Notes: generated by a model from the letters alone, not told the origin. A stretch of DNA of 64,000 nt from an uncultured Armatimonadota bacterium (GCA_903927025.1 CAIYLG010000061.1:1-64000), one strand, 5' to 3'. Counted from the first letter of the stretch, positions 6,911 to 61,195 are shown. Program-made: numbers and translations.

Positions 6911-6988
6911 TATTTTCTCCTTTCCCCAAAGACGGAATGGTCCTAAAAGGGACAGGAGTCATTGATATCTGATCAGCAGTTACTTAGG

Positions 6989-7006
6989 CGTGACATAACC
7001 GTGACA
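6989..7006 (-). promoter_or_regulatory. Direct heptamer repeat CGTGACA-4 bp-CGTGACA upstream of the heparinase-like gene
   Basis: Two identical heptamers (6989-6995 and 7000-7006) are separated by four bases, giving an 11-bp period. SARP/BTAD regulators are known to bind heptamer direct repeats with four-base spacers. The site is about 80 bases upstream of the TTG start, and a BTAD regulator is the convergent neighbour. The sequence arrangement is seen; the binding is inferred. Confidence 0.45.
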
Positions 7007-7059
7007 CATCCAATTTGGGCACATGGGCCCATTTGGGTGGGTTGAATCATTGTGCATTT

Positions 7060-7566
7060 TCAGGTTCCCGCCACTGTCCGTTCGACATCCTTCATCAAGA
7101 AGTAGAGGTGCAGAGGATTGCTCGGACACTCAAGGATTCCGAAACGCAGGTAAAGGCTCTTCGCCTCTTCATCTTTAGCGTGAGTCATAAACGCTCGGAC
7201 TCCCGCATCTTTAGCGACACTCAGACAACGCTTAAGGGCATCCTTAAAGAGGCCCCTTCCGATTCCTTGGCTCTGGTAGTCCTTATCTACGGCGAACCTG
7301 GCCATGAGGATAATCGGGATCGGGTGCTTGGCCAGGCCCTTGGCCATTCTTTCGGGGGCGTCGCCGTACAGGATGGAACTGACTGCGAGCGAGTAGTAGC
7401 CGATGACCCGCGTACCATCTAATCCCACAAAGGTGCGGGCACTGCCATTGGCTTGGTTGGCCATGGCATGGCGAGCAAGAAAGGTGTTGAGCGGTTCTTT
7501 CCCGCAGTCAAACTCGAGGAAGTCGTGCGACTTATCGAGAAGAACTGGTCCCGAAAACGGGCTCAC
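7060..7566 (-). CDS. GNAT-family acetyltransferase, toxin of a DUF1778-GNAT toxin-antitoxin pair
   Basis: A 168-residue GNAT enzyme of the TacT/AtaT type, which blocks translation by acetylating the amino group of charged tRNA. The acetyl-CoA loop is visible as YQSQGIGRGL, and the tyrosine near the C-terminus (SLYLRFGI) matches the usual catalytic Tyr. N-terminal HDFLEFDCGKEPLNTFL is typical of this toxin group. The GTG start overlaps the antitoxin stop by four bases (GTGA), so translation is coupled. Length is normal, so the toxin appears intact. The specific tRNA target cannot be read from sequence. Confidence 0.88.
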   Translation of the reverse strand: MSPFSGPVLLDKSHDFLEFDCGKEPLNTFLARHAMANQANGSARTFVGLDGTRVIGYYSLAVSSILYGDAPERMAKGLAKHPIPIILMARFAVDKDYQSQGIGRGLFKDALKRCLSVAKDAGVRAFMTHAKDEEAKSLYLRFGILECPSNPLHLYFLMKDVERTVAGT

Positions 7567-7997: not shown

Positions 7998-8264
7998 CTA
8001 GAGATACCAATAAGCCGGAGAATAGGCAGTACCGATTTCTAGATCGAGTTTGATTTGGGTGAGGATGTGGTAGTTCGCAAAGGTGCTGAGCCGCTGATAC
8101 CGGGTCAGACCTGAGATTGCCAAATTTCGAGCGTCTTCAAATTTCCCAGCATCTGCCTTCTGCTTACAAAGGGCCAGTGACCGGATTTGTACCCTCCCCC
8201 TGAGTTCTTGGGCTCGCTGACCTGTAGTGCCAGAATATTGGAGAACGAGACGGCGATGCGCCAA
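7998..8264 (-). CDS. Small hypothetical protein, possibly TPR-like
   Basis: An 88-residue frame starting at TTG, 7 bases after the stop of the gene at 8272-8871. The segment KADAGKFEDARNLAISGL has the spacing of one TPR-like helix pair. No signal peptide or known motif is seen. It could be translationally coupled to the upstream gene, or be its frameshifted remainder, since the two are nearly adjacent. Existence as a separate gene is uncertain. Confidence 0.35.
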   Translation of the reverse strand: MAHRRLVLQYSGTTGQRAQELRGRVQIRSLALCKQKADAGKFEDARNLAISGLTRYQRLSTFANYHILTQIKLDLEIGTAYSPAYWYL

Positions 8265-8271
8265 CGCATCG

Positions 8272-8871
8272 TTACCGGGCCTTGCCGACGGTCACTGAAC
8301 GAACAATCTGATCGCAGATTGAATTCGTTAGCGCACTAAGATTGTGGTTTTCTGGCTTGAGCTTGCACTCGATACTGATCAGTATCCCTCTGTCCTCATC
8401 AAAGAGCGCGCCGCTTCCATACCTAAAAGGCTCTCGGTTAACCATCATCGCACCTTTCTCCATGAGCCCAACCCAAATCTCCCAATGCTTATAATTTGTG
8501 CGAGTGTGGGAAGGAAAAGTCTTAATACCGTCGACGAGATCGAGATAAAGCTGCCGCGTTCGCTTATTGTCCTCAGGATCGCCTGAACTCAAGATCCTAT
8601 CGCCCGCAACTGATATCCGATCACCTGCTTTATTCTTGAAATAGTAGTCGGTTGAACCGTAGCTTTTGACATTTACGCGACGGAATCCTTTCGGTAGGCG
8701 CAAAGAGCATGCTACGGATTTCGGGAGCTTCAGCGAAAAGTTTCCGTGTGTGTCTGGATCTTGGGTCCCAGCAGCCTCATGGGGGTTGTGTTGGCTGCGT
8801 CCCGGTGCGATCGCCACACAGCAGAGCAACCCAAAGAATAGGTGCGTAGAAGCGAGTCCATTAAAAACCAT
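8272..8871 (-). CDS. Hypothetical secreted protein
   Basis: A 199-residue protein I do not recognise. The N-terminus is a short hydrophobic segment (LFFGLLCCVAIAPG) followed by a His/Pro/Thr-rich linker, consistent with export; the paired cysteines might be a poor lipobox. The remainder is mixed alpha/beta with several Lys/Arg, including a YYFKNKAGDRISVAGDR stretch. No Shine-Dalgarno site is obvious. It lies in the accessory stretch between a toxin-antitoxin pair and a broken rhuM. Confidence 0.5.
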   Translation of the reverse strand: MVFNGLASTHLFFGLLCCVAIAPGRSQHNPHEAAGTQDPDTHGNFSLKLPKSVACSLRLPKGFRRVNVKSYGSTDYYFKNKAGDRISVAGDRILSSGDPEDNKRTRQLYLDLVDGIKTFPSHTRTNYKHWEIWVGLMEKGAMMVNREPFRYGSGALFDEDRGILISIECKLKPENHNLSALTNSICDQIVRSVTVGKAR

Positions 8872-9253
8872 AATCTAAATTCAGACGACATCAATAACGC
8901 AGCCGGTGGTCGTAGCGTTGAACTCGTCCAGTTGACCGGGTAAATGGGCTTTTGGGTGGAAGCATGTTGCTCCTTGTCCACCCTGGTCTTGTTGCGGATC
9001 GGGGTGAAGCGGAGGTGACGTTCTGGTTTGCGATGTATCTTGCAGGCCGCGGCTCCGGCGGTCGGAGGGCCAGTTTCTGGGACAACTTCGAGATTGCCTG
9101 TCGGGTCGCGGAGATCGAGGATCGGGCGGAGTTCTTGCGGGGTCAGGCTTGTAAGGGGTCTCTCGTGTTCACCCGGCGGGTTGCGGCTTGGTTATTGGCC
9201 GAAGCGCTTACCTAGTCTTTCGCCAAGGCGAAAGGGAGTTCGAAGCAAGAAAT
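8872..9253. other. Intergenic or decayed stretch without a supported gene
   Basis: Frames are open on both strands (for example 8952-9215 plus and a minus frame through about 8730-9190), but neither has a recognisable motif, start signal or protein-like composition. It may be remains of an older insertion. Confidence 0.35.
9217..9234 (-). repeat. Perfect 8-bp inverted repeat downstream of rhuM
   Basis: CTTTCGCC and GGCGAAAG around two bases, about 20 bases after the rhuM stop on the minus strand. No T tract follows, so terminator function is doubtful. Confidence 0.4.
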
Positions 9254-30697: not shown

Positions 30698-31144
30698 GTG
30701 ACGCTTACCTTGATCGGTCCAACCGGACCACCCTGGCTTTTTTCTGCAACTTGGTTTTCGGACGGCGAACTGCGCATAGAGGTGGCAGAGGATAGGCAAG
30801 GTAAACGAGAGGTTTTGTATGGTGCGGTGATTGACGAAGATAGCCCCGGTCTTTTCGCGGTGCCCTCGGTCTGCCGGACCTTGCGACGATGTGGTTTCCG
30901 AAACGCAAAGAACGCCTCAGGCTGGCAGGGACTTCCGTCAAACCTCACGCTGCATGACAGCCTTCTGGAGTTTGAAATCTTTCTAAGTCAGAACGAGTTA
31001 GGCGGCAAGTGCACGCTGGTCGTTTACTTTCCCGTCGGCTCAGAAGGTCATTTCGCCAGGCGCACGGGGCGTTGTCTACTGTCTGAATTGCATGCACTTG
31101 CAGATGCTATCGAGTCAGGAATCCCGCCCCACTGGTTTGAGTGA
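30698..31144 (+). CDS. Hypothetical protein
   Basis: A 148-residue soluble protein starting at GTG. It looks like a compact alpha/beta protein with strands at the N-terminus (LTLIGPTGPPWLFSATW) and a C-terminal helix (LLSELHALADAIESG). No motif or family recognised. The start lacks a clear ribosome site. It is near the left border of the A+T-rich island; size and isolation would fit an immunity-type or phage-derived gene, but this is only a guess. Confidence 0.5.
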   Translation: MTLTLIGPTGPPWLFSATWFSDGELRIEVAEDRQGKREVLYGAVIDEDSPGLFAVPSVCRTLRRCGFRNAKNASGWQGLPSNLTLHDSLLEFEIFLSQNELGGKCTLVVYFPVGSEGHFARRTGRCLLSELHALADAIESGIPPHWFE

Positions 31145-31640
31145 CGGTGTGGTTAGGCAATAGCAGGAGAACGGCCGCCATCTATCCGGGTCCTATCACG
31201 GAGAGCCCTCAGTCAAGCCATAAACCCGGTTGTTGTTGGCTCCTGGTTTTCCCGGGTTAGCAGTGTTCCAGATTAAGTGGGATGCCATTATTCTGAAGGA
31301 AGCGCTGCGAGGTCCTCCTAGCCTACATACGAGAGCCCGCGTATCCAATTGACGGCAACTTGGTTAAACCAAGCACCTACCGATTGGCAATCGCGTCGTT
31401 CCCCGCTCGCAGAAAGTTGAGATTTTCCACATCCTGAATCTACTTCAAGCGGCCCCGCGGTTTTCAGGAACCAAAATTCTACGCGAAGCCTAATGAGTCA
31501 ACGGAACCTCGAGGTCGAATCTGGGCCTTAACTGCTTTGGACAAAGATTCGGACAAACTCGCGAAAGAATATCCGCACAGAAAATGGCAAGACCATCGAA
31601 ACTGCTTCCATTTTTGGCAATACCAGTGTACTATTCCCTC
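31145..31640 (+). other. Non-coding stretch upstream of the Cys-rich operon
   Basis: About 500 bases without a convincing gene on either strand. The only signal found is TACTAT at 31629-31634, six bases before the ATG of the Cys-rich gene, a candidate -10 box for a leaderless operon mRNA. A lone TTTTCCACA sits at 31423-31431. Confidence 0.4.
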
Positions 31641-32978
31641 ATGTTGAGAACTTCTGATCAATCAATGCGACGTGTTTTAGCAAGTTGTACCGTCATTCTA
31701 TGCGTTATTTCAGCCGCTTTCGGATCAGATACTAGGCTTCAGAAACAGATGATCAGCCTGACGAAGACAAACCTCAACATCAATTTGGCTCAATGTACTG
31801 TCGAAGGGGTTTGCAGTAGGAAGACTAATCCCTACCACCTCTCACTTGCAGAACTCGATGTCCGGCCTGATCGTCACCGGGCAGCACTTCCGTCGCACAG
31901 AATGCTCGTAGATAATCCTTATCCGACGTTTGCTGTGGGATGTCACAGCACAAGCACAGGGTCAGCCCCAACATGCAATTACACATTTGCCCAGAATCCT
32001 AGTTGTAGCCAGACGAGTTCAACTTCGAACTGCAACACCAATTCGCCAGGTTGCACCTCAACTCCCTCTAATTGTACTAGTTCGTCTCCGCCCTGTAGTC
32101 CGCTGACGTCGTTTGGAGGATCTCCTTGTGCAACTTCGGAGTCAGCATGTACTCAAGTGTCCGTTGGATGTGAATTCACCGCGCAGTCTTCTTGCGCCAA
32201 CCAGACTATCTACCCTGCGTGCGCTACAGCAAGCTCAGCAAATTGTAGTACCGCTTCAAGTGGCACTCAATGTACCTCTACAGCTGGCACATGTCCAACC
32301 GTCGCGCCGGCCGGTGGAACCTGTGCTTGGACGGTGGTTTCCAGTGGAGACTGTGGCTCGGCAATTGCAGGTTGCACGACTTCATCCTCATGTCTCAGCC
32401 ACACGGTGTATCCTGCATGCGGACCCCAAACCTACTCAAATCCGCCATGCAATACTATTACTTCAGCGAATTCAGGAGGCGGGTCATGCTTTCAGACATA
32501 TACACCTCAGCAAACATGCCAGCCGTTTACATCCGCGGTGCTGTGCTCGACTGGTAGTGCACCTCTCTGTCAGCCGCTAACCAGCACATCTCAAATATAC
32601 AACTGCACGGTTGTGGGCCAACCCCTCTGCTCGCCGCAAACTAATGCGAACGGCAACAACTGCTCGATCACATTTGCGCCGAACGGGTCGAACTGTTCCT
32701 CAACCTTCTCATTCAGTTGTATGAACACTCAAGCGGGTGGAAGTAACTGTTCCGTTGCTGGAGCATGTAGCTTGACATATGGATACAACTGTTACACGAC
32801 TATAAGTCAAGGCGGAGCATGCTATACGAATGCAATCGGTAAGCCGCAGTGCTTCCCTACCGCAACTGCATTGGCGGAGAACATTGCTCCAGGGACAGAA
32901 CTTTTGCCGTTGGCCCTGAGCGTCATGATGTCGCTATTCGGATTAGCCTGCGTTGTATCGCAACTTAATCGAACATGA
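31641..32978 (+). CDS. Cysteine-rich secreted protein with C-terminal membrane anchor
   Basis: About 445 residues. A signal peptide (RRVLASCTVILCVISAAFG) leads into a roughly 310-residue Ser/Thr/Asn/Gly-rich segment in which I count 35 cysteines spaced about 5-15 residues apart, each usually after a small residue (SNC, PPC, GTC, PAC). An internal duplication is visible: SSCANQTIYPAC and SSCLSHTVYPAC. The C-terminus has a PGTE spacer, a 20-residue hydrophobic helix (LLPLALSVMMSLFGLACVVS) and a short tail ending in Arg-Thr, the layout of a surface anchor or sorting signal though not a canonical PEP-CTERM. ATG 31641 is chosen for its -10 box and signal peptide; ATG 31584 is an alternative. First gene of a four-gene A+T-rich operon. 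Function unknown; a disulfide-linked surface layer or fibre is one possibility. Confidence 0.75.
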   Translation: MLRTSDQSMRRVLASCTVILCVISAAFGSDTRLQKQMISLTKTNLNINLAQCTVEGVCSRKTNPYHLSLAELDVRPDRHRAALPSHRMLVDNPYPTFAVGCHSTSTGSAPTCNYTFAQNPSCSQTSSTSNCNTNSPGCTSTPSNCTSSSPPCSPLTSFGGSPCATSESACTQVSVGCEFTAQSSCANQTIYPACATASSANCSTASSGTQCTSTAGTCPTVAPAGGTCAWTVVSSGDCGSAIAGCTTSSSCLSHTVYPACGPQTYSNPPCNTITSANSGGGSCFQTYTPQQTCQPFTSAVLCSTGSAPLCQPLTSTSQIYNCTVVGQPLCSPQTNANGNNCSITFAPNGSNCSSTFSFSCMNTQAGGSNCSVAGACSLTYGYNCYTTISQGGACYTNAIGKPQCFPTATALAENIAPGTELLPLALSVMMSLFGLACVVSQLNRT

Positions 32979-34789
32979 TGAGTCTCTTATTGGGTTGGGC
33001 GCTCTCCCATCCGGATCATACTCAACTCATCACCTTCGAACCAAGGATCTACACTTACCGTCAAATTGCGGCAATTGTAACTGAAAATGGAGTTCACGTC
33101 TCCTGTGATCCGAGAATTCAAGATAGATTGGCGCTCGTGTCAATTCCTCCTTCTGACGGAATTAAGGCGAGGAAGTTTATCTTAGCTGCGCTGAATCTGG
33201 AAATAAGTCGTACATCTGAGTCTACTGCAATCATGCAACTCCGCATTAGCGCGAGCCGTAACGAACAACAATCCTTACGCTCCTACATTGAACAATACGA
33301 TGCAGCACTGAAAGCGGCACTTAGCCAGCTTCCGGACGCAAACAATTGCGCAAACGATCAATTGATCCTTAGGAACCCAGTCTTTGAGGAAGCTCAGCGT
33401 ATTGTAGGCTCGCCCTTAGATCATACAAATGAAGAATTGATTGCAGCGAATTTTCTTGTTCAAATCAAACAGGACGGATCAGTGCCCAGAGGCCTCTTGG
33501 ACTTTGCTAGAGGACATTCGATTTTAGATATACTATCCAAGAATTCCGTAGTAATTACTACACCTAACGAAGTGCTTAATACACAAATGGACTGTCCGTA
33601 TGGACGCGCTTTTGTAGGTGATCAAATGGACAAAAGCTACTGGCTGTCCGATACAAACTCAACTAAGCGTCAACCCAAATTATACGCTGAAGGGGTGTGC
33701 TTTAATAGGCAAATTGGATCGATTCTTTCTTGGGGAACGTTATTCTCCACCGCGCCAGGAGTTCAGTTGTACTCTCCACTATGGCAACCAAATAAGCTGC
33801 CCCTTCATAACGGTGAAGCGCTGACCGAACAAACAGAAATACTTGCCAAAACAAAATCTTTCCTACAAACACAAATCGCCTCGACCAATATCGATGTTGC
33901 AGCAGACATTTCAATGAGCAGTCTTCTGTTGAACTGGTCGGTCGCTACAGCGGTTCCGGTCGTTGCCGAAGTCTCAGCGTATCGTGACACTTATGTGGCG
34001 CCAGGCGGAAACTCATTACAAAGTCGTTACATGCCTCGGTGGATCTTGCGAGGGTCAATAGCCAGCAATTCTTACTACTTTCAACCTAGATCTTCCTCCC
34101 TAAATCCGAATATGCTCTTTTGGCTTGGGTTGGAAAGGACAAGCTTCGGAGTCCTCGGTAGGAATTTAGTTGGATTTTTGGACACGGTGCAAATGCCACC
34201 ATTTCATAAAATCGAACCCTTGCTAGAACGACAGAGCGGGGAAACCCTAACGAAGGGATATTTTGAGAACGTCGAGGATTGCCTCAGCAATCTTAGCTTA
34301 GTCGAATGCGAATCGTTTTCTCAAACGGATTGTTCCATGGCCCTTCACAACGTATTGCAGTCGGCTCCCTTTTGGCGGCTATTCAGTCAGCTTCCAAAGG
34401 AACTCAGAACCGCGGTGAACGACCGGTTGGTCATGCGTGAGTCGTTCCAAATCCATCTCCCTGCACTTTCAAAGAAGATTCAGAGTAGGTTCAGGGAGGA
34501 TCTTGGAAGGTTGTATTTATCATCGACTCAACATTCGTCTAATGGTGAATTTCGATATCTTGGAGAAGAGCTATCTCAACAAGTCACCAGTATTGATGGA
34601 ACAGTGTACGTATTGTTTGACCGGGATAAGACCAATTTGCATGCAGTGTTTGGCGTCTCTTGGAATTACGCCGATCCGACGGATTCGATGGTGCGTAAGG
34701 TAAATGCCCTTGAAGGCGTTCCAGATTTGCAGAATGCGCTGACGACTGTGAATTCCTACATGTCACATGTGTGGGTCTCTCATCCATGA
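32975..34789 (+). CDS. Unknown protein with possible STN-like N-terminal domain
   Basis: A 604-residue protein with no recognised family. Its ATG overlaps the stop of the Cys-rich gene (ATGA), so the two are translated together. Residues about 20-90 (YTYRQIAAIVTENGVHVSC, then PSDGIKARKFILAALNLEI) have the helix-strand spacing of the secretin/TonB N-terminal (STN) domain; this is a weak resemblance by eye. The rest is mixed and contains scattered cysteines (VEDCLSNLSLVECES, FSQTDCSM), suggesting an extracytoplasmic location, but the N-terminal hydrophobic stretch (MMSLLLGWAL) is a short and poor signal peptide. Confidence 0.65.
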   Translation: MMSLLLGWALSHPDHTQLITFEPRIYTYRQIAAIVTENGVHVSCDPRIQDRLALVSIPPSDGIKARKFILAALNLEISRTSESTAIMQLRISASRNEQQSLRSYIEQYDAALKAALSQLPDANNCANDQLILRNPVFEEAQRIVGSPLDHTNEELIAANFLVQIKQDGSVPRGLLDFARGHSILDILSKNSVVITTPNEVLNTQMDCPYGRAFVGDQMDKSYWLSDTNSTKRQPKLYAEGVCFNRQIGSILSWGTLFSTAPGVQLYSPLWQPNKLPLHNGEALTEQTEILAKTKSFLQTQIASTNIDVAADISMSSLLLNWSVATAVPVVAEVSAYRDTYVAPGGNSLQSRYMPRWILRGSIASNSYYFQPRSSSLNPNMLFWLGLERTSFGVLGRNLVGFLDTVQMPPFHKIEPLLERQSGETLTKGYFENVEDCLSNLSLVECESFSQTDCSMALHNVLQSAPFWRLFSQLPKELRTAVNDRLVMRESFQIHLPALSKKIQSRFREDLGRLYLSSTQHSSNGEFRYLGEELSQQVTSIDGTVYVLFDRDKTNLHAVFGVSWNYADPTDSMVRKVNALEGVPDLQNALTTVNSYMSHVWVSHP

Positions 34790-34816
34790 AAATGAAAGGA
34801 ATCACGAAGACAGAGT

Positions 34817-37222
34817 ATGAGATATGCTGCCACTGAATCACATATGGAGAGCCAAATATTGACTGATGATAGTTCCGAAGGTGCACAAGTAAAGGAGAAG
34901 CTGGCTTTTGCGCTATTACCAGTCATTTCCGGGTTCTACTTGTCGTATTGCATAAAAGCAAATGGTTTACCGGAACAAGCGTACTCTCTTTTTCTTGCGC
35001 TATTCATTTGGTTTGTATTGTTCCTTCTATTTGAAGTCCGCGGCGTACTCGTCTTAGTCTCTTTCCTCCCGCTAGGTCTTCTTTACTTCGTTCATAATTC
35101 CGTGGCGACTTATGTGGCTGTCATTTCATGTGGAATTATCGTAGCAATACAAAGGAAAAGCTTTGGTCAATTGCGACGACACTTGGTTCTTGCCGGTTGG
35201 GTTTGCGCCTACTTGATGATTGACCAATCAGGATTATTTTGGCAGGCTACAGAGTTTGTGAACAGAGGTCTGAAGAACTTTCCTCTTTTGGCTCCAAGCC
35301 TAGTCAGTCCCAATGGTGTTCGTTCCCTTGGCGTTGAGTGGACGTTCATTTCGCTCCTAGCAATATGCGGTGGCAATCGAGGTTCAGTAGAAGTGAGAAG
35401 CCGCATATATGCCAAGTTGGGGCTCGTTGCATTATCAATGATCTGCAGCTTAACCACAAACTCAGATATCCCTTCTATGGTCCTAGCGGCAAGTCTTTGG
35501 CTATCGAGCCCGCTAGAGTCCTTGAATTCTCAACGCTCTTGGGATGCCCAGAGATCTGTCACAGCGCTAGCCTTAGGATGCATATGCCTTGGGTTTGTCC
35601 TGTCGGCGAACCAAATAGTGGACGGAAAGCCTAAGACAAGAAAAGTGGTGATTGTTGATGGCGGGTTAAAGACGCTTACGGTTCCCAGTGGTCCACCGTT
35701 GATGGCATCCGAACCTCCGCAGGCGTCGTTTGGAGCGATGGTTCGGCTACTGAAGGAGAACGGCTGGGAACCCAAAATTTGTCCTGCGAGCAAACTTTCT
35801 GCCAGCATCGAAGATGCGGCTTTATGTATACAAATAAATCCGCAGACGTACCTGACAAGAGTTGATAAGTCTTCGTTGTTGCGGTTTGTATCGTCGGGAG
35901 GTGGATTCCTGGTTCTCGGAGATCACACTGACATTGCTGGGATTCGAGGGCCCCTTAACGACGCTTTGAGTTTCACCGATATTTCATTCCGCTTTGACTC
36001 CGCCATTGCCCTTCCGCACAATTTTGAGTGGGAAGACGGATTAAAGATCGCGTCCATTAACGATTTCTTTGGTTACTCAAATGTCGACTTTGGCATCGCG
36101 ATTGGCGCTAGTTTGCGCGTTGGTCCAGATGCGAGAGTTCTTATTAGAGGCGAGCGAGGATTCTCCGATCCGGGCAATTATGCTACGGGCCCGTCTCATT
36201 TAGGTTCAATGCAACCCGCGGCAAACAAAAATGTCGGATCGCTATGTTTAGTCGCCGAACAAAAGATTGGTGACGGTTTAGTCCAAGTCTGGGGCGATAC
36301 AAGCGGCTTTCAAGACTCCGCATTAACTGAAACCTCTGCATTTGTCCTATGTGACTTGGAGAGGTTAGCGAGCCACAGGTATCTCTTCACCCACAAGGTT
36401 GCCTGTATAATTTGTGCTTCAGCTACGGCAATATGGTTGATTTGTTTGATGGCGTCCCCTCTCCTCGTCCAGGGGGTGCTCTTGGTAATTGTGGCGGTTG
36501 GTATGGCCGTCGATGAGTTGATCAAGACCGAGTCGGTACAGGCATCGCGGAGGGTTACGAGGACCTCTCCTATTCAATTCGACTGTAGCCATGGCAGCGA
36601 AATACCTAAAGCAGATAACTCCGGCCAGCTTTACACCAGCAAGCTTCGAAACTTGATTCTTCGGACTGGGCAACTGTCGGTGAACGAATACGACACGATT
36701 CCCTGTTGGAACGCCACAAAATGTGTGTTTATCTTGGCCCCAACCAGACCGTATTCAGAGCAAGAAGCTCGAAGCCTTCGACGATGGGTTGAGAATGGGG
36801 GCACACTGTTTCTGAGCATTGGACGGAACAACACATTCGCTTGCAAATCATTGTTTAGAATGTTTGATTTCGAGGTAGGCGATAGTCAGAGAGGACGTGG
36901 AATCGGAGCGGTCACTGACCGCCCTTGGGTCTATGATGCAGCAAATCACCTCAGAAGTACCGCTCCGTTAATCAAAGTTCCTGCCGAGGTGCCGATCACC
37001 TTTATTGATTCGTACGCGATCCAGTCGAAGCAGGGGGAGACAGTTTGCTCGGCCCTGGGTGACCCGTTAATGAAGATTCTGCCTTGGAGAAAGGGCCGCA
37101 TCGTGATCGTTGGCGATAGCAGGTTTTACACAGACAAGAATCTTGGTGAACGCGACACATGGAATTTACCAAATGCACACCTTATCTATCGCCTACTATC
37201 GCAAGATCTTCCAAAAAACTGA
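34817..37222 (+). CDS. Polytopic membrane protein with two glutamine-amidotransferase-like domains, paralog 1
   Basis: An 801-residue protein. About eight hydrophobic segments (residues about 30-265) are followed by a soluble Rossmann-like domain (about 270-515) with GGGFLVLGDHTDIAG, two more membrane helices (about 525-570) and a second soluble domain with SEQEARSLRRWVENGGTLF. The soluble parts resemble class I glutamine-amidotransferase-like or DUF4350-type domains, which often lack the catalytic Cys. The next gene has the same layout and the GDHTD motif. The membrane part I cannot assign: MBOAT-like and exosortase-like folds were both considered. The ATG 34817 has only a distant AAAGGA; ATG 34844 is an alternative. 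Confidence 0.72.
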   Translation: MRYAATESHMESQILTDDSSEGAQVKEKLAFALLPVISGFYLSYCIKANGLPEQAYSLFLALFIWFVLFLLFEVRGVLVLVSFLPLGLLYFVHNSVATYVAVISCGIIVAIQRKSFGQLRRHLVLAGWVCAYLMIDQSGLFWQATEFVNRGLKNFPLLAPSLVSPNGVRSLGVEWTFISLLAICGGNRGSVEVRSRIYAKLGLVALSMICSLTTNSDIPSMVLAASLWLSSPLESLNSQRSWDAQRSVTALALGCICLGFVLSANQIVDGKPKTRKVVIVDGGLKTLTVPSGPPLMASEPPQASFGAMVRLLKENGWEPKICPASKLSASIEDAALCIQINPQTYLTRVDKSSLLRFVSSGGGFLVLGDHTDIAGIRGPLNDALSFTDISFRFDSAIALPHNFEWEDGLKIASINDFFGYSNVDFGIAIGASLRVGPDARVLIRGERGFSDPGNYATGPSHLGSMQPAANKNVGSLCLVAEQKIGDGLVQVWGDTSGFQDSALTETSAFVLCDLERLASHRYLFTHKVACIICASATAIWLICLMASPLLVQGVLLVIVAVGMAVDELIKTESVQASRRVTRTSPIQFDCSHGSEIPKADNSGQLYTSKLRNLILRTGQLSVNEYDTIPCWNATKCVFILAPTRPYSEQEARSLRRWVENGGTLFLSIGRNNTFACKSLFRMFDFEVGDSQRGRGIGAVTDRPWVYDAANHLRSTAPLIKVPAEVPITFIDSYAIQSKQGETVCSALGDPLMKILPWRKGRIVIVGDSRFYTDKNLGERDTWNLPNAHLIYRLLSQDLPKN

Positions 37223-39722
37223 CCTTCTTGGCTCAATCGCAATCGGGCTAGTTGTTTGGTTAGCAGCACTGCTGTGTATTGAGACTACACCCCGTACATT
37301 TCTTTTCGTGGGATTTGAACCTAATCCGCAGTGGAAACTTATCGCATTTGCTTTAGTTGTTGCTTCACTAGCGCTTCCATCAAATGTCACTGCGGCTCAA
37401 CCGTGGTGGATCGGCCTTGCGCTCTTTGCATTATGCGCGCTTTTGTGGCCAGCAACACCGAACTTTCAGGTTTTGACGGTTTTGGTCATTTTATGGATTG
37501 TGGCCACTAGGGTACGTCTGGCGAATTGGGCAGCTGGCCGGCTTGGCTTTGCCGCAAACATACTGTGCCTTTGTATTGCTGTTGACAATGTGTACGATAA
37601 GATAGACAGTCGCATATCCGTACTGCCCGGTTTGCAATCCATATCATGCTTGATACTTAAAATATGCGCAATTGACTCGACGATTAATAACGATTTTTTG
37701 TATGTAAACCTTCATGGGGTTACCTACAGGATGCTCGTTAGCTTAGATAAGCTTGGTGGGTCATTTCCATGGATCCTGATGTTTGGATTTGGCTATTGCA
37801 TTTACCTCCGTACTCGGCGTCTTTCATACGTGGCAACTACTGTTCTGATCGTAGCTTTCGGGAGCGTGTGCTTTTCAGTAGCCGGTTATTGTATAAGTGC
37901 CGGAACGTCCAACAATGACTGGTGGACTGAGTCAATCATTGCAATTGGGTACTTGCCGCTTGTTTCGATTGTTGCTTTGATATATTTCGTTTCAAAAAAA
38001 GTAAAGACGGACGCAAAAGAGTTCAAAGTCTCCAGTAGCTCCTTTGTGTTAACGCTTGGAGCCTCAATAATATTGTGCAGTAGCATTTTCTACGTCGATG
38101 GTGGTCCGAAGTCCAACGGCAAGGTCGTGATCGATGATCTGCATAGCGACTGGGAGTGGCTTGATACACCTTTGGACACTTATTGGTATGGTATGAGGTC
38201 GACATACAACTATTACAATTTTCAGGAAGGTCTCAGTCGATACTATAGCGTTAGCCTGAATCACTCTCCGATTACGACAGTTAGTCTCGAATCGGTCAGT
38301 GTATTAATACTCAAAACTCCAACTCAACCATACTCTCTTTCAGAAATTGAGGCAATTGTTGAATTTGTAGATCGGGGTGGGGGGCTCTGGATTATTGGGG
38401 ACCACACAGATGCATTTGGAATGTCAACGTACCTAAATCCTATTCTCAGTCGGTTTGGCAGCAAGTTTGAATTCAACGCTGTGGGCGATCCAATGTACCG
38501 GCGCAACCTCTATGCATCAAATAGATTTACCTCCGGTTTGTATCCTGATTTGTCTACGTTTCTGTTCTACACGAGTGGGCAAATTAGAGCACCACTACTT
38601 TGGAATGATTCTATTCACCAAGGGAGACTGTTGTTGGACGAAGGTGACTATTCTGCTGGCACCTTCTTTGGCAACATGGAGCCGGATATCTACGAACATG
38701 TGGGGCATGTCACGGAAGCATCAGAGGGTTCTTATGGCAACGGCAGGGTAGCAATTTGGTCGGATAGCACTTTGTTTTCAAATTTTTCGATCTTTATGCC
38801 TGGTAAGTTTGAGGTCGCTATTCAGACAGTGGACTGGTTAGACAGGCAGAGAGCTATCGGACGTTATAGGCCGCTGTTATTCCTTTTCGGAGGGATTGTT
38901 TTCTTGTTGGGTGCCCGAAATTCTGTTACAGGTCAGATTGCTCTCTCCGCCCTTTTAGGTTGCAGTCTGGCAATATTGTTCACGCGATTGTTACATTCAT
39001 GGGAATTTCCAAACCTAAGGCCAATTGCTCCGTTTCGCGATGTGGGGTTTTACGAACCCGCTAAATTGGGTTACTTTCCGGAGTTAACATCGATTGACAA
39101 GTCTTCTCCAGTTACCAATCTGAGCGCCTTCATAGCATGTCAAAGGGTCGGCAAGCGTGGGAGAATTCTTGATGATCTTTCGACCGTATCTCAATACTCT
39201 CAAATTGTGTTAATACCCTCAAGGACGCAGTTTGAGCGCAATGAGATTTCTTTGCTTAGGTCTTGGGTTCGGCGTGGTGGGGAGTTGATTGTTTTAGATG
39301 GATGTAAGTTAGGAATCGACGCTGGAAGACAATTAGCCGAAATTGGTGATTTGAAATTGGCTGAGTTGCCTCGCTCCGATCTCACAGGAGGAGTGAACGA
39401 ATTGAGGAGTGGCACAGGCATGCAAGTTGGGATGGACGGGACCCGAGTAGGCGTTTTACAGGGATCACTTGTGCTGGCGAAAATTTCGAACAGCGGAACC
39501 GCTGTTGGTGTAGAGCGGAAAGTTGGTTTAGGGCGTTTGGTCTTCTTCTCAACTTGTTCTTTATTTTCTGATGATAGCTTGTCATTGGACGAGCAAATAC
39601 CATCGACAGTACAACTAGAAGCTAGGTGGTTGCTGTATGGAATATTAGACAATAGATTTATAGACAAACAGCCGACGCGCTTACCAAATTTGGACCATGC
39701 CGTCATCCCGATGAGGGAATAG
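37173..39722 (+). CDS. Polytopic membrane protein with two glutamine-amidotransferase-like domains, paralog 2
   Basis: An 849-residue protein sharing the architecture of its upstream neighbour: about eight membrane helices, a soluble domain with RGGGLWIIGDHTDAFGMSTY (aligning with GGGFLVLGDHTDIAG), a helix pair around residues 605-650, and a second soluble domain with NEISLLRSWVRRGGELIVLDG. ATG 37173 gives a 50-base overlap with the upstream gene, indicating coupled translation; an earlier in-frame TTG only adds residues inside the overlap. Low G+C like the rest of the island. Second-copy retention next to each other suggests a heteromeric complex. Function unknown. Confidence 0.72.
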   Translation: MHTLSIAYYRKIFQKTDLLGSIAIGLVVWLAALLCIETTPRTFLFVGFEPNPQWKLIAFALVVASLALPSNVTAAQPWWIGLALFALCALLWPATPNFQVLTVLVILWIVATRVRLANWAAGRLGFAANILCLCIAVDNVYDKIDSRISVLPGLQSISCLILKICAIDSTINNDFLYVNLHGVTYRMLVSLDKLGGSFPWILMFGFGYCIYLRTRRLSYVATTVLIVAFGSVCFSVAGYCISAGTSNNDWWTESIIAIGYLPLVSIVALIYFVSKKVKTDAKEFKVSSSSFVLTLGASIILCSSIFYVDGGPKSNGKVVIDDLHSDWEWLDTPLDTYWYGMRSTYNYYNFQEGLSRYYSVSLNHSPITTVSLESVSVLILKTPTQPYSLSEIEAIVEFVDRGGGLWIIGDHTDAFGMSTYLNPILSRFGSKFEFNAVGDPMYRRNLYASNRFTSGLYPDLSTFLFYTSGQIRAPLLWNDSIHQGRLLLDEGDYSAGTFFGNMEPDIYEHVGHVTEASEGSYGNGRVAIWSDSTLFSNFSIFMPGKFEVAIQTVDWLDRQRAIGRYRPLLFLFGGIVFLLGARNSVTGQIALSALLGCSLAILFTRLLHSWEFPNLRPIAPFRDVGFYEPAKLGYFPELTSIDKSSPVTNLSAFIACQRVGKRGRILDDLSTVSQYSQIVLIPSRTQFERNEISLLRSWVRRGGELIVLDGCKLGIDAGRQLAEIGDLKLAELPRSDLTGGVNELRSGTGMQVGMDGTRVGVLQGSLVLAKISNSGTAVGVERKVGLGRLVFFSTCSLFSDDSLSLDEQIPSTVQLEARWLLYGILDNRFIDKQPTRLPNLDHAVIPMRE

Positions 39723-39832
39723 TTATATCACTGGGTGTTTGACTTCAGTGAGTGCGGTTTATTGGAAAGTAAATGTTGGGAAGTCAGTCGGATTGAAGAT
39801 ATAAGGTGCACTTTTCTCGCTTTTTCGAAGCG

Positions 39833-41227
39833 CTACAGAGGCCGGGACGGCGAAGCCTGCCGCAACTGGGTGAGGCGTTTGCCGGAGGCGAAGGGCATGT
39901 TGATTTGGCGGGCGTAGAGGTCGTACTCTTCGGCTCCGGTGACTTCGACTCTCACGATGTCGCCGGGTTTGGAGTCGCCTTCTACGAAGACGAGGCCGTC
40001 GATTTCGGGGGCGTCTCGGTGGGATCTGCCGATGAGCCAGCCTTCTCGGGAGTCTTCAATCAGCACGTCCATCTGTCTGCCGACCCACGCCTGGTTCATC
40101 TCCAGGGAGATCTTCTGCTGGAGGCGCATCAGCTTGTCGTATCGCTCACGCTTGACGCGGGGTGCAAGCTGGCCTTCCATGTCGTGGGCTGGGGTGCCGG
40201 GCTCTTTCGAGAAGACGAACGCCCCGACTCGATCCAAACGAGACTGCTTGGTGAAGTCGATCAGGTAGTCGAACTCCTCCTGGGTTTCGCCGGGGAAGCC
40301 GACGATATAGGTCGTTCTAATCGCACAATCTGGCATTGCGGCGCGGACCTTGTCAAAGAGCTTGAGGTACCGCTCGCCGTCCCAAGGGCGCTTCATGCGG
40401 CGCAGCGTTTCCGGGTGCGCGTGCTGGAGGGGGATGTCGATGTACGGCAGCACCTTCTCGCAGGTCGCCATCGTTTCAATAACTTCGTCGGTCAGTCGGT
40501 TCGGATAGAAATAGAGAAGTCGGATCCAGTCGATTCCCTCGACCGCGCTCAGCTCACGCAGCAGCTTGGGAAGAGTGAACTCCTTGTACAGGTCGTAGCC
40601 GTACTGGGTGACGTCCTGAGCGATGAGGTTGAGCTCTCTGGCGCCGGTCTTGGCGAGGTGACGCGCTTCCTGCAGCACACGTTCAATTGGCTTGCTCTGG
40701 TGGCCACCACGGAAACTTGGAATCGTGCAGAAGGTGCAGCGGTGGTCGCAACCTTCACTGATCTTCAGGTAGGCGCTCCACGGCCTCCCCGTGCGGGTGC
40801 GGGTTTCGACCTCCGCCCAGCGATGGTGGGGTGGGGTGACGTCGAGGGTCTGATTGCGTGCCTCTTGGACTTCGCGGACGATTTCCGCAAACCGACCCAT
40901 CTGACCGACTCCGACGTATAGATCCGCTCCTGGCGCCAGTTTCATCAGCTCGGGGCCCAGACGCTGAGCTAGGCAGCCTGCGACGATGACCTTGCCGGTC
41001 CTTCCCGCCTTCTTTTCGCGGACGGCATCCTTGATCGCCTGAATGGACTCCGCCTTGCTGGCTTCCAGGAAGCCACAGGTGTTGATCACGGTGACGCTGG
41101 TCTTCTTGGCGTTTCCGTCAATCTGGAATCCCTCACGGGCAAGCACGCCCGCGATCTCCTCGCTGTCCACTTCGTTTTTGGCACAGCCGAGGGTCACGAT
41201 CCTGACTTTGTCTGGAGATTCCTGCAT
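39833..41227 (-). CDS. rimO: Ribosomal protein S12 methylthiotransferase
   Basis: Radical SAM enzyme of 464 residues that adds a methylthio group to the conserved aspartate of ribosomal protein S12. The N-terminal UPF0004 domain (TLGCAKNEVDSE) carries cysteines for the auxiliary cluster; the radical SAM site is CDHRCTFC within KISEGCDHRCTFCTIPSFRG; the C-terminal TRAM domain begins near QMDVLIEDS. DLYVGVGQ and related motifs favour RimO over MiaB. The ATG lacks a Shine-Dalgarno site and follows a CATAAT box by eight bases. Typical housekeeping composition, marking the right border of the A+T-rich island. Confidence 0.95.
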   Translation of the reverse strand: MQESPDKVRIVTLGCAKNEVDSEEIAGVLAREGFQIDGNAKKTSVTVINTCGFLEASKAESIQAIKDAVREKKAGRTGKVIVAGCLAQRLGPELMKLAPGADLYVGVGQMGRFAEIVREVQEARNQTLDVTPPHHRWAEVETRTRTGRPWSAYLKISEGCDHRCTFCTIPSFRGGHQSKPIERVLQEARHLAKTGARELNLIAQDVTQYGYDLYKEFTLPKLLRELSAVEGIDWIRLLYFYPNRLTDEVIETMATCEKVLPYIDIPLQHAHPETLRRMKRPWDGERYLKLFDKVRAAMPDCAIRTTYIVGFPGETQEEFDYLIDFTKQSRLDRVGAFVFSKEPGTPAHDMEGQLAPRVKRERYDKLMRLQQKISLEMNQAWVGRQMDVLIEDSREGWLIGRSHRDAPEIDGLVFVEGDSKPGDIVRVEVTGAEEYDLYARQINMPFASGKRLTQLRQASPSRPL

Positions 41228-58571: not shown

Positions 58572-58647
58572 CGGGGCGTGGCGCAGTTGGTAGCGCGCGT
58601 GCTTTGGGAGCATGAGGTCGCACGTTCGAATCGTGTCGCCCCGACCA
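58572..58647 (+). tRNA. tRNA-Pro (anticodon TGG)
   Basis: A complete cloverleaf: acceptor CGGGGCG/CGCCCCG, D-arm with AGTTGGTAG, anticodon stem CGTGC/GCATG around loop TTTGGGA (anticodon TGG), T-arm with GTTCGAATC, discriminator A and encoded CCA at 58645-58647. Confidence 0.97.
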
Positions 58648-59025
58648 TCTCCAACAGCCGGATGCAAACATCCACCATGAAGAGGTAACTGCATCACAAA
58701 TTTCTCCGGCAGATGCCTGCAATCGTAGGGCTGGCTTTTGCCTCATGCCATCCAGTTTGAGATTCGAGCGACCCGGTAAGCCCTCCATTTGCTTTCAAGC
58801 AACAAGATTTTTGGATCGGTCCCCTCGCCTGCCTGCGGCGGGAGAGGGAAGAGTGAGGGTGGTTCAGGAGATCGCGCCCCTGGCCCTTTGTTTGCATGGA
58901 AACCTGCAGTATTTGAACCTGGACTGCCCTGCCTCACACTTCCGGACACAACCGGTCTGCAACCGACCTTCCCTTTGACCGTCACCTGCGTAAAACACCT
59001 GTCATCCGGGTTACTCTAAAACCCT
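58648..59025. other. Intergenic stretch with a GC-rich dispersed-repeat-like segment
   Basis: No gene is supported on either strand. The part at about 58815-58866 (CCCCTCGCCTGCCTGCGGCG, then GGGAGAGGG and GAGGGTGG) resembles in composition the arms of inverted repeat A and forms an imperfect hairpin. The 3' end carries TACTCT at 59012-59017, eight bases before the next ATG. Confidence 0.4.
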
Positions 59026-59364
59026 ATGAAGAAGGTTTTGGCATGCGTCGCCCTCCTGGCTTGCTCCAACATGTTCATGAACGCCGCGTGGTATGGGCAT
59101 TTGAAGTTCAAGCACTCAGCACTATGGCTGGTGATCCTCAGCAGTTGGGGAATTGCCTTCTTTGAGTACTGCCTTCAAGTACCTGCCAATCGAATCGGTA
59201 GCGATACGCTTTCGGTCACTCAACTCAAAGTGATCCAAGAGGTGCTTTCGCTGAGCACCTTCGCTCTCTTCTCGTTTGCTGTCTTTAGAGAGAAGCCGAC
59301 CATCAATCAGGGAATCGCCTTCGTGCTGATCATCGCCGCGGCTTATTTTGCGGTGAAAAAGTAG
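59026..59364 (+). CDS. DUF486 small multidrug-transporter-like membrane protein
   Basis: 112 residues with four hydrophobic helices, matching the DUF486 family (fold of the drug/metabolite transporter group). MFMNAAWYGHLKF, SWGIAFFEYCLQVPANRIG and TQLKVIQEV are the conserved segments. No Shine-Dalgarno site; TACTCT ends eight bases before the ATG, so a leaderless mRNA is likely. Transported substrate unknown. Confidence 0.88.
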   Translation: MKKVLACVALLACSNMFMNAAWYGHLKFKHSALWLVILSSWGIAFFEYCLQVPANRIGSDTLSVTQLKVIQEVLSLSTFALFSFAVFREKPTINQGIAFVLIIAAAYFAVKK

Positions 59365-59373
59365 GTTGAACGA

Positions 59374-59574
59374 TCACTTTTTAAACGCCAGCAAAACGAC
59401 GACCAGGGCAAAGCAGATAATTCCGGCGACGATGGCAATTTGACTCATTTGCTGTTTGCGTTTGATGCGTCGTGACATCTGCCTTGCAATTCGACCTCGC
59501 TCCGGCGGCGTGCAGACTGGACATCGGCGACGCCCTTCCGGGAGCTCTTGATTGCAAAAGGGGCAGACTGGCAC
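59374..59574 (-). CDS. Zinc-ribbon membrane protein
   Basis: 66 residues: a zinc ribbon (VCPFCNQELP and RRCPVC, two CxxC pairs), a basic segment (RIARQMSRRIKRKQQ) and a single C-terminal transmembrane helix (IAIVAGIICFALVVVLLAF). It starts at GTG, five bases after a TATAAT box. Convergent with DUF486, with only nine bases between the stops. Confidence 0.75.
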   Translation of the reverse strand: MPVCPFCNQELPEGRRRCPVCTPPERGRIARQMSRRIKRKQQMSQIAIVAGIICFALVVVLLAFKK

Positions 59575-59579
59575 ACGAC

Positions 59580-59609
59580 ATTATAAGTAGTCCGTGGTCC
59601 AAATTCCAA
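59580..59609 (-). promoter_or_regulatory. Promoter of the zinc-ribbon gene
   Basis: On the minus strand TTGGAA (59604-59609), an 18-base spacer and TATAAT (59580-59585) are followed five bases later by the GTG start, so the transcript is probably leaderless. Confidence 0.6.
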
Positions 59610-59761
59610 GTCGGTACGAATTCTTATTTGAAGTTATTTAGATGATTCTTAACGGACAGCAACGATACGAGGTAACCGAATGTACTCCGATTGGTCGGAA
59701 TCTGCATGAACTACCAGGGATATTGCTGTGTTCGGTATTAACGCCTTACCTGCAAACTCTG

Positions 59762-61195
59762 TCAAGCCGCGGAAGCGACAACTTGAACTGCCAGTGCCAA
59801 AGCTTTTTCGCGCACTCTAACGACCTCTCCAATGATGATTGCCGCAGGTGGGACGCACTCTGTGGCAAGGCTGACAATGTCCTCCAGTGTGCCGGTTACG
59901 ACAGTTTGGTTTGGCAGAGTGCCATTCGAAACAATGGCAACTGGTGTCGACGGATCACGACCGTACTCCAGGAGTCGCTCTACGATCAGGGGAAGACGTT
60001 CGACCCCCATTAGAAAGACTGCAGTTGGAATCGCCGCTGCCGCCGCCCACGGAATGCCGTCTCCAGCCTTGTCGTCGGCTTCTTGACCCGCGAATACGGC
60101 GAATGCCGTCGAGATTCCTCGGTGAGTCACCGGAATGAAGGCTGCCTCCGCCGCCGCCACCGCTGAGCTGATCCCCGGAACAACCTCAAAGGCGATACCT
60201 GCCTGAGCGAGGGCAAGAATCTCTTCGCCACCCCGACCAAAAACGAATGGATCTCCACCCTTGAGGCGGACGACCACCTTTCCGCGCTGTGCGTGAGCGA
60301 TCAACTGATCGTGGATCGACTGTTGCCGCCCACGTCCAGGAGTTCCGCGATCCTTGCCTGCGTAGATGCACTCGGCACCGGGTGGTGCATAGCCCAGCAG
60401 AATGGGATTCACCAATCGATCGTAAAGCACCACGTCGGCACGGCGAAGGATCTCCGCGGCGCGGACGGTAATCAGGCCCGGGTCGCCCGGCCCAGCTCCG
60501 ACGATATAAACCTTCTGGGGATCCACGGATTGCGGTTCGGCTGCGATCACGGCCGCACGTCGCAGCATTGATCGAAATTCCGCGTCGGCAGCCTCTTCTC
60601 CTTGCGAAGCTAGGACATGGGGAACCTTGGAGTCAATAACCTGCTCCCAAAATCGCTGACGAATCTTGTAGGAGGGAAGCGTTGCCTTAACTTCAGGTCG
60701 ACGATCTCCCAAGAATTCGGCCAATGCTCCGACGTTCTCCGTGAGGATCTCGCTGACGATACGATTTCTCACTCGCTGGGCAAGTGCCGGAGAGCACCCG
60801 GCACTGGAAATAGCCACCTGCATGGGTCCGCTCTTGGCGATGGCCGCCATGATGAAGTTGCAGTTGACTGGATCATCCACTGAGTTGGTCAGCTTCTGAG
60901 CGGCATTGCCGAGCTTGTACACCCAGGCATTGACCTCGGGGTTGTTCGTTGCCGCAATCACCATGAATGCGCCGTCAATGTCCCTTGGCTCGAAGGCACG
61001 CGGGATCCAGGTAATCGTTCCCTCTGAAACCCAGGCTTGCACCTCGGGCGAGATCTCTGGCGACACTACGGTGATGCGCGCGCCGGTTGGAATAAGAGAA
61101 TTCAGTTTTTCGATCGCAACGAATCCGCCGCCAACAAGGGTGATGGCGCGCCCCGTTAGGTGCAGATAGACCGGATGGTAGTGGGTATACGGCAA
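59762..61195 (-). CDS. cysG: Siroheme synthase
   Basis: Trifunctional enzyme of 477 residues making siroheme for the sulfite reductase. The N-terminal precorrin-2 dehydrogenase/ferrochelatase part has the NAD site VGGGFVAIEKLNSL and the dimerisation region to about residue 215; the C-terminal uroporphyrinogen-III methyltransferase part shows VGAGPGDPGLITVRA, GKDRGTPGRGRQQ and LKGGDPFVFGRGGEE. Lies 3 bases after the sulfite reductase gene, so the cofactor enzyme is made with its client. Confidence 0.95.
   Translation of the reverse strand: MPYTHYHPVYLHLTGRAITLVGGGFVAIEKLNSLIPTGARITVVSPEISPEVQAWVSEGTITWIPRAFEPRDIDGAFMVIAATNNPEVNAWVYKLGNAAQKLTNSVDDPVNCNFIMAAIAKSGPMQVAISSAGCSPALAQRVRNRIVSEILTENVGALAEFLGDRRPEVKATLPSYKIRQRFWEQVIDSKVPHVLASQGEEAADAEFRSMLRRAAVIAAEPQSVDPQKVYIVGAGPGDPGLITVRAAEILRRADVVLYDRLVNPILLGYAPPGAECIYAGKDRGTPGRGRQQSIHDQLIAHAQRGKVVVRLKGGDPFVFGRGGEEILALAQAGIAFEVVPGISSAVAAAEAAFIPVTHRGISTAFAVFAGQEADDKAGDGIPWAAAAAIPTAVFLMGVERLPLIVERLLEYGRDPSTPVAIVSNGTLPNQTVVTGTLEDIVSLATECVPPAAIIIGEVVRVREKALALAVQVVASAA

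Follow-up and report, generated by a model that had tools for sequence, protein, structure and literature searches.

We analysed a 64,000-nucleotide stretch of DNA from an uncultured Armatimonadota bacterium (GCA_903927025.1 CAIYLG010000061.1:1-64000; hereafter the window), in which four open reading frames (ORFs) on the same (+) strand at positions 31665-39722, named here A to D, form a compact operon. A and B have 4 bases in common (32975-32978), B is separated from C by 27 bases (34790-34816), and C and D share 50 bases (37173-37222), which agrees with the two overlaps and the short gap described in an initial annotation of this DNA. Gene A encodes a secreted Cys-rich protein, and C and D encode membrane proteins whose relatives in other bacteria and in archaea occur as a pair (C-D). 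We regard this pair as a probable, hitherto undescribed machine for the handling of tagged proteins once they have left the cell. The features of the locus are as follows; loci and genomes used for comparison carry our own L and G labels.

31665-32978, + strand: gene A, a secreted Cys/Ser/Thr-rich protein and putative substrate; homologues occupy the equivalent position in L011, L012 (two copies) and L013
31665-31727, + strand: predicted signal peptide of A (MRRVLASCTVILCVISAAFGS), from reading of the sequence
31728-31742, + strand: DTRLQ, the degenerate tag of A, from alignments and comparison with L017 (DSPVFSHIAVMSETGM)
32898-32975, + strand: predicted C-terminal hydrophobic anchor of A with basic residues at its end (ELLPLALSVMMSLFGLACVVSQLNRT), from reading of the sequence; the tails in L012 and L017 are alike
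32975-34789, + strand: gene B (604 residues), kept between A and C
34817-37222, + strand: gene C, a polytopic N-terminal domain and two GIFT/GATase1-like domains with two transmembrane (TM) helices between them (DUF4350, E 1.8e-11)
35639-36316, + strand: first GIFT domain of C with the GDHT[DN] motif, from motif alignment and model
36572-37201, + strand: second GIFT domain of C, from Pfam and model
37173-39722, + strand: gene D, a paralogue that shares the domain plan of C, from Pfam and model
37224-38090, + strand: polytopic domain of D, in which a beta-hairpin (residues 168-188) precedes a helix, from profile alignment and model
38115-38852, + strand: first GIFT domain of D, from VIA
38400-38408, + strand: DHT motif of D, from an alignment of 47 D proteins
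38571-38579, + strand: TSG in D, in place of the Cys-bearing triplet (mostly TSC) of 43 of 47 relatives, from alignment
39036-39662, + strand: second GIFT domain of D, from model and VIA
31001-40000, no strand: A+T-rich island, from GC windows

The initial annotation recognised no family in any of the four proteins, a statement that fails for C and D, since both carry DUF4350/GIFT domains above curated cut-offs. DUF4350 (PF14258) scored 45.1 bits with C and 43.1 bits with D (curated cut-off 30.4), D matched IFT52_GIFT with 37.2 bits (curated cut-off 27.2), and both proteins matched related GIFT and ABC_transp_aux (PF09822) models in Pfam; by profile, C reached the GIFT domain of IFT52 with an E value of 1.6e-9. 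The GldG model (TIGR03521) gave only 12.2 bits with the window's C against an equivalog cut-off of 389.85, and did not match D. That the two membrane proteins are paralogues, as had been proposed, was borne out by cross-matches between their GIFT parts and by an hhalign E value of 3e-6 between their TM parts. Structure models of C (pLDDT 60) and D (pLDDT 72.5, pTM 0.75) have the same order of elements: a polytopic N-terminal domain is followed by the first GIFT domain, a pair of TM helices and the second GIFT domain. In the model of D, residues 315-559 were matched to 5fmr_A (IFT52) with a VIA Z of 21.1 and a root-mean-square deviation of 2.7 over 205 aligned residues; the VIA matches of D cover mainly residues 315-828, not the membrane domain.

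Several residues are highly conserved among relatives. The His of GDHT[DN] is present in all 41 aligned C proteins and its Asp in 40, and the His of the DHT motif is found in 47 of 47 D proteins, which also keep the Cys (in TSC in most) in 43 cases and an Arg in the membrane domain in 44. The D protein of the window has neither of the last two, as it reads TSG at the Cys and Phe at the place aligned with the Arg. From a K/R-rich loop in front of the final helix that leads into it, the first GIFT domain is predicted to lie outside, and this positively charged loop suggests that the GIFT domains face outward.

Pairing of the two genes was observed in nearly all of the 48 loci, which come from five named phyla: in 45 of them C directly precedes D, two others are cut at a contig end, and L147 is an unexplained exception. 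A scan of a genome collection found relatives in Desulfobacterota, Planctomycetota, Verrucomicrobiota, Thermoplasmatota (archaea) and one unassigned bacterium. Surveys of individual phyla gave 4 of 345 genomes for Desulfobacterota, 14 of 343 for Planctomycetota and 18 of 243 for Thermoplasmatota, and 7 of 291 for Armatimonadota, among which G247 matches weakly and probably has no true D. C-D is sporadically distributed across at least four bacterial phyla and archaea. In the D tree the archaeal sequences form one clade, and the sequences of the four Armatimonadota operons cluster with that of a Phycisphaerales locus in which CTxGxx repeats are likewise present.

Secreted proteins encoded near C-D have in common a short motif that follows the signal peptide, in the form of SPLF, SPIF, SPLY or SPVF. 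The motif was scored 18-70 residues behind the ORF start, with signal peptides assigned by our own simple rule. Of 210 secreted-like ORFs at most 6 kb from C-D, 33 contained SP[LIV][FY], and these are spread over 22 of the 49 loci; seven control motifs, permuted or altered, occurred 0-1 times. The bodies behind the tag are very diverse. Bacterial partners are Ser/Thr-rich and carry mutually unrelated repeats, namely CTxGxx (period 6), TxCPxxx (7), T[MF][ND]P..D..C (11-15) and C[VA]GSx (5), and in the archaeal SPLF proteins the body is hydrophobic or the C-terminus is short, variable and Cys-bearing. L137 encodes a long TCNGxx protein with the variant NPLY in mid-protein. None of the Cys-repeat and archaeal SPLF proteins scanned matched a family in Pfam or NCBIfam. 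Cys content alone was rejected as a marker because of its low specificity (counting short out-of-frame ORFs, 29 in 432 kb near C-D and 9 in 162 kb of background), and ORFs that combine 20 or more Cys with a Cys content of 8% or more were rarer in the background (2). Two TxCPxxx-repeat proteins adjoin C-D in L131 (5702-7099 and 7872-10574); the C-terminal end of the former is a type I dockerin domain (Pfam, 1.8e-8), and that of the latter looks similar by eye.

The SPLF tag was first spotted in these loci and then tested, and the genome-wide co-occurrence in archaea serves as an independent check. The 243 Thermoplasmatota genomes surveyed for D were also searched with a leader profile of 70 residues (A8). 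Matches that spanned the motif at E<1e-10 were obtained in 16 genomes, all of them among the 18 carriers of C-D. The two other carriers are G1073, which has a weak match and whose tag was recognised by eye in L128, and G1082, of which only a short contig was seen. None of the 225 Thermoplasmatota genomes lacking C-D had a strong leader; the matches there are weak, and most of them are confined to the signal-peptide part. The Fisher p value of 4e-23 for co-occurrence across the 243 genomes is inflated, as the archaeal D proteins are one clade. In carrier archaea the SPLF genes are dispersed, reaching 20 or more per genome. Big dispersed families with a conserved leader of ~120 residues were observed in G1090, G1114, G1131 and G1190 (e.g. 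L181-L194); their C-termini are hypervariable, hydrophobic and Cys-bearing, and they are possibly secreted peptides or toxins. Moreover, a secreted archaeal protein of ~350 residues with NTHAGYFD and VYMATC motifs is encoded downstream of an SPLF gene (L119, 11934-12977; L024, 5687-6709; also L122, L123, L124, L125 and L148). It appears caspase/gingipain-like by eye, the one protein scanned had no match in Pfam, and it is a possible second peptidase of the system.

Protein A of the window is Cys-rich, as the initial annotation had stated: it contains 40 Cys in 437 residues (9.2%), compared with 0.2-2.7% in the genes flanking the operon, with irregular Cys spacing of 7-11 and 28% Ser+Thr. Its start at 31665 (MRRVLASC...) was preferred over 31641 because alignments of homologues begin there. 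At the position of DTRLQ, relatives have SPLF, NALY or LPVQ after the signal peptide, and the Armatimonadota A proteins carry drifted forms of the tag (ANPNALYQHIASLSANGM, SQDLPVQRHIAHLSSAGM and QETRLQEHAI, next to SDTRLQKQMI in the window's A). Scans of A against Pfam and NCBIfam gave no match. A-type leaders were detected in 5 of 291 Armatimonadota genomes, that is, in the four operons and as one orphan in G049. The orphan is a CTxGxx protein (L211, 8650-9363), perhaps a remnant of loss.

Only the four Armatimonadota operons have gene B, in each case between A and C and with an identity of 19-21%, and it had no match in Pfam or NCBIfam. The possible STN-like start ascribed to it lacks Pfam support, since none of the four B proteins matched STN at E<=10. 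Similarity to FecR was also rejected, as Pfam gave no match and the FecR-like protein of L017 did not match B either. In that Phycisphaerales genome, a gene for an ECF-like sigma factor (ECF, extracytoplasmic function) and the gene for the FecR-like protein, both recognised by eye, lie directly upstream of C-D (5026-7435).

The C-D pairing, the homology and fold of the GIFT domains, the adjacency of tag-bearing proteins and the archaeal co-occurrence are established. Together with a rhombosortase-like distribution, the retention of the tag on partner bodies that are unrelated in sequence, the conserved His, Cys and Arg and the charged loop, they lead us to propose, with about even confidence, that C-D is an extracytoplasmic complex dedicated to the maturation or sorting of secreted proteins that bear the tag. 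C and D would form a membrane complex with its GIFT domains outward, which may recognise Sec-exported proteins via the SPLF-type tag directly behind the signal peptide. A single maturation or sorting step would follow, in which the tagged leader is most likely cleaved off or transferred, so that the Cys-repeat body might be freed or fixed at the surface. In members other than that of the window, the conserved His and Cys of the first GIFT domain of D are candidate residues for such putative proteolysis. In the present genome, the system may have been cut down to one substrate, A, encoded beside its processor, with B as a probable accessory of the Armatimonadota branch. The earlier idea that the membrane pair builds, modifies or anchors the Cys-rich protein was thus of the right class, and the link between the pair and secreted Cys-rich proteins gained support from adjacency across phyla and co-occurrence in archaea; the data point to recognition of an N-terminal tag and leave the chemistry unspecified.

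If this is correct, secreted proteins of bacteria and archaea would have a new handling route based on an N-terminal tag and a membrane complex, and a first functional handle would be available for DUF4350/GIFT membrane proteins, Cys-repeat families and archaeal SPLF families. More tentatively, C-D could represent a new bacterial and archaeal sorting class, in which a two-subunit GIFT membrane enzyme with extracytoplasmic Cys-His chemistry would act on an N-terminal SPLF tag that survives removal of the signal peptide; its substrates would be dispersed and number in the tens in some archaea, and would be Cys-repeat surface proteins in bacteria.

On the other hand, several points weigh against a maturation or sorting complex. 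About half of the loci have no tag protein within 6 kb, and many contigs are short. The archaeal carriers, being one D clade, are less independent than the Fisher test implies. The GIFT fold is known mostly from non-enzymatic proteins, where it serves in binding or as a scaffold, catalysis by C-D is putative, and the likeness of the membrane domain of D to exosortases is without significance. The member in the window is the least certain of all; as its D has neither the Cys nor the Arg and its A has no SPLF, this copy may act differently or be decaying. The orphan A of G049 has no C-terminal anchor and occurs in a genome without C-D. Homologues without these neighbours, or matches of each gene to a separate known family, had been named at the outset as grounds against a joint function; this orphan and the DUF4350/GIFT domains of C and D count in that direction, but only in part.

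Two other explanations are each unlikely, though worth weighing. C-D might be a glycosylation or glycan-binding platform, in which a GIFT domain like that of OST48/Wbp1 binds sugar or lipid-linked sugar and helps to decorate Ser/Thr-rich repeats. The first GIFT domain of D indeed matches OST48/Wbp1 (VIA Z 17.1-17.6) and GH42 accessory domains, a sugar-binding role has been proposed for GIFT domains (PMC7226087), and Ser and Thr are abundant in the bacterial partners. However, no recurring glycosyltransferase or oligosaccharyltransferase was seen beside C-D when neighbours were read by eye, without a systematic scan, and the archaeal SPLF bodies are hydrophobic rather than Ser/Thr repeats. With a similar low probability, C-D might be a structural anchor or export chaperone, free of any chemistry, for a surface fibre of Cys-repeat proteins. 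GIFT domains are frequently scaffolds (IFT52), several partners retain a TM anchor of their own (A in the window and L017), and the candidate catalytic Cys is absent from the window's D; but more than 20 different dispersed substrates in an archaeal genome are better suited to a general processor, and the invariance of the DHT His hints at more than a scaffold.

Maturation similar to that of ribosomally synthesised and post-translationally modified peptides (RiPPs) appears less probable still. In such a case, the tag and the next segment would be the leader and the variable Cys-bearing C-terminus the core, whose Cys and Thr would be cross-linked or modified by C-D outside the cytoplasm. The conserved leader and hypervariable C-termini of the archaeal proteins, the regular Cys with Thr nearby in most bacterial repeats, and a sub-threshold match (E 0.005) of L133 to CefA (NF038108), a model with Cys at every fifth position, would fit this idea. 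Yet partner proteins reach 1000 residues or more, which is unlike RiPPs, the Cys-Thr offset varies with the type of repeat and its enrichment over composition is modest, and no known RiPP enzyme was noticed next to C-D. Mere co-location in a laterally moving island of surface genes, with GldG-like C-D and functionally unrelated Cys-rich proteins, could account for the patchy distribution, the low GC and the orphan A of G049, but is very improbable, being disfavoured by the motif-specific adjacency in many lineages and by the co-occurrence with dispersed archaeal genes.

The A+T-rich island noticed at first has a G+C content (GC) of 45.3-52.1% over 31-40 kb compared with 55-61% in the adjoining windows; genes A-D have 46-51% (neighbours, 55-61%), and GC at third codon positions is also lower (0.46-0.50 compared with 0.56-0.77). 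D was found in only 4 of the 61 nearest genomes, the present one included, each with ordered A-B-C-D, and in 1 of 20 genomes of the genus. The suggested acquisition is thus supported by low GC, patchy presence and the grouping of Armatimonadota D with that of Phycisphaerales. A check of gene order in related genomes, recommended by the initial annotation, recovered A-B-C-D in three other genomes of the same order, and because of this identical order we consider the island to be more than chance. A defence system was rejected, as PADLOC gave no match, as was a phage origin, with uninformative PHROG matches and no relatives on viral contigs. From their sequences read by eye, we take the flanking genes to be a tricorn-like and a TIM-barrel gene at one end of the operon and rimO/hemA/hemC-like genes at the opposite end. 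Further GC dips (~51%) were observed in the window at 8001-9000 and at 59001-60000, the latter directly downstream of a tRNA-Pro gene (58572-58647).

With IFT52, OST48/Wbp1 and GldG, C-D shares an extramembrane GIFT fold and profile matches. It differs from them in that each chain has two GIFT domains and a large polytopic domain at its N-terminus, in the obligate pairing of paralogues and in the GDHT[DN] and TSC motifs, and no ATPase partner was noticed. As for the partners, L133 resembles CefA in its regular Cys spacing of 5, but scores 16.8 bits against a cut-off of 30 and has a signal peptide and an SPLF tag. Solenoids of the Tenebrio antifreeze protein type are built from 12-residue CT repeats (TCTxSxxCxxA), which the CTxGxxCTxG repeats appear to resemble in Cys/Thr spacing, a likeness at the sequence level only; the repeats of other partners are very different.

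Neither C nor D matched PF09721 at E<=1, nor a rhomboid family in Pfam or NCBIfam. A true exosortase was considered for D, whose membrane domain looks like an exosortase core by eye, but was rejected and is retained as a lead only. A profile of its membrane domain from 13 sequences aligned with 25 exosortases at an hhalign E value of 3.4e-4 (best of 100 shuffles, 6.5e-4), and one from 47 sequences at 0.003-0.007 (best of 100 shuffles, 0.003). The alignment is collinear and the beta-hairpin of D stands where it would be expected, yet adding sequences made the signal weaker and brought it inside the block-shuffle nulls; because the 47-sequence score lies within the range of the shuffled controls, we do not claim membership. 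In the best alignment, the place of the exosortase catalytic Cys (ACSG motif) is S-L-[DE]-K in D, and at the place aligned with the exosortase membrane Arg 44 of 47 D proteins have Arg but that of the window has Phe. A sequence search found no solved exosortase structure. The genome of the window (G000) has no exosortase above the PF09721 cut-off, and 93 of 121 sampled Armatimonadota genomes have one.

In sortase, exosortase, rhombosortase and myxosortase systems the tags are C-terminal. C-D resembles rhombosortase/GlyGly-CTERM and exosortase/PEP-CTERM in its sporadic distribution, in the short tag on otherwise unrelated secreted proteins and in the co-distribution of a polytopic membrane protein with that tag. 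For rhombosortase, many dispersed targets per membrane protein, and adjacency where the target is single, have been described (PMC3237569), and C-D likewise is adjacent to a single locus of putative substrates in the four Armatimonadota operons and accompanied by many dispersed ones in archaea. It differs from these systems in that the tag stands behind the N-terminal signal peptide and the putative processor is a pair of GIFT-domain proteins.

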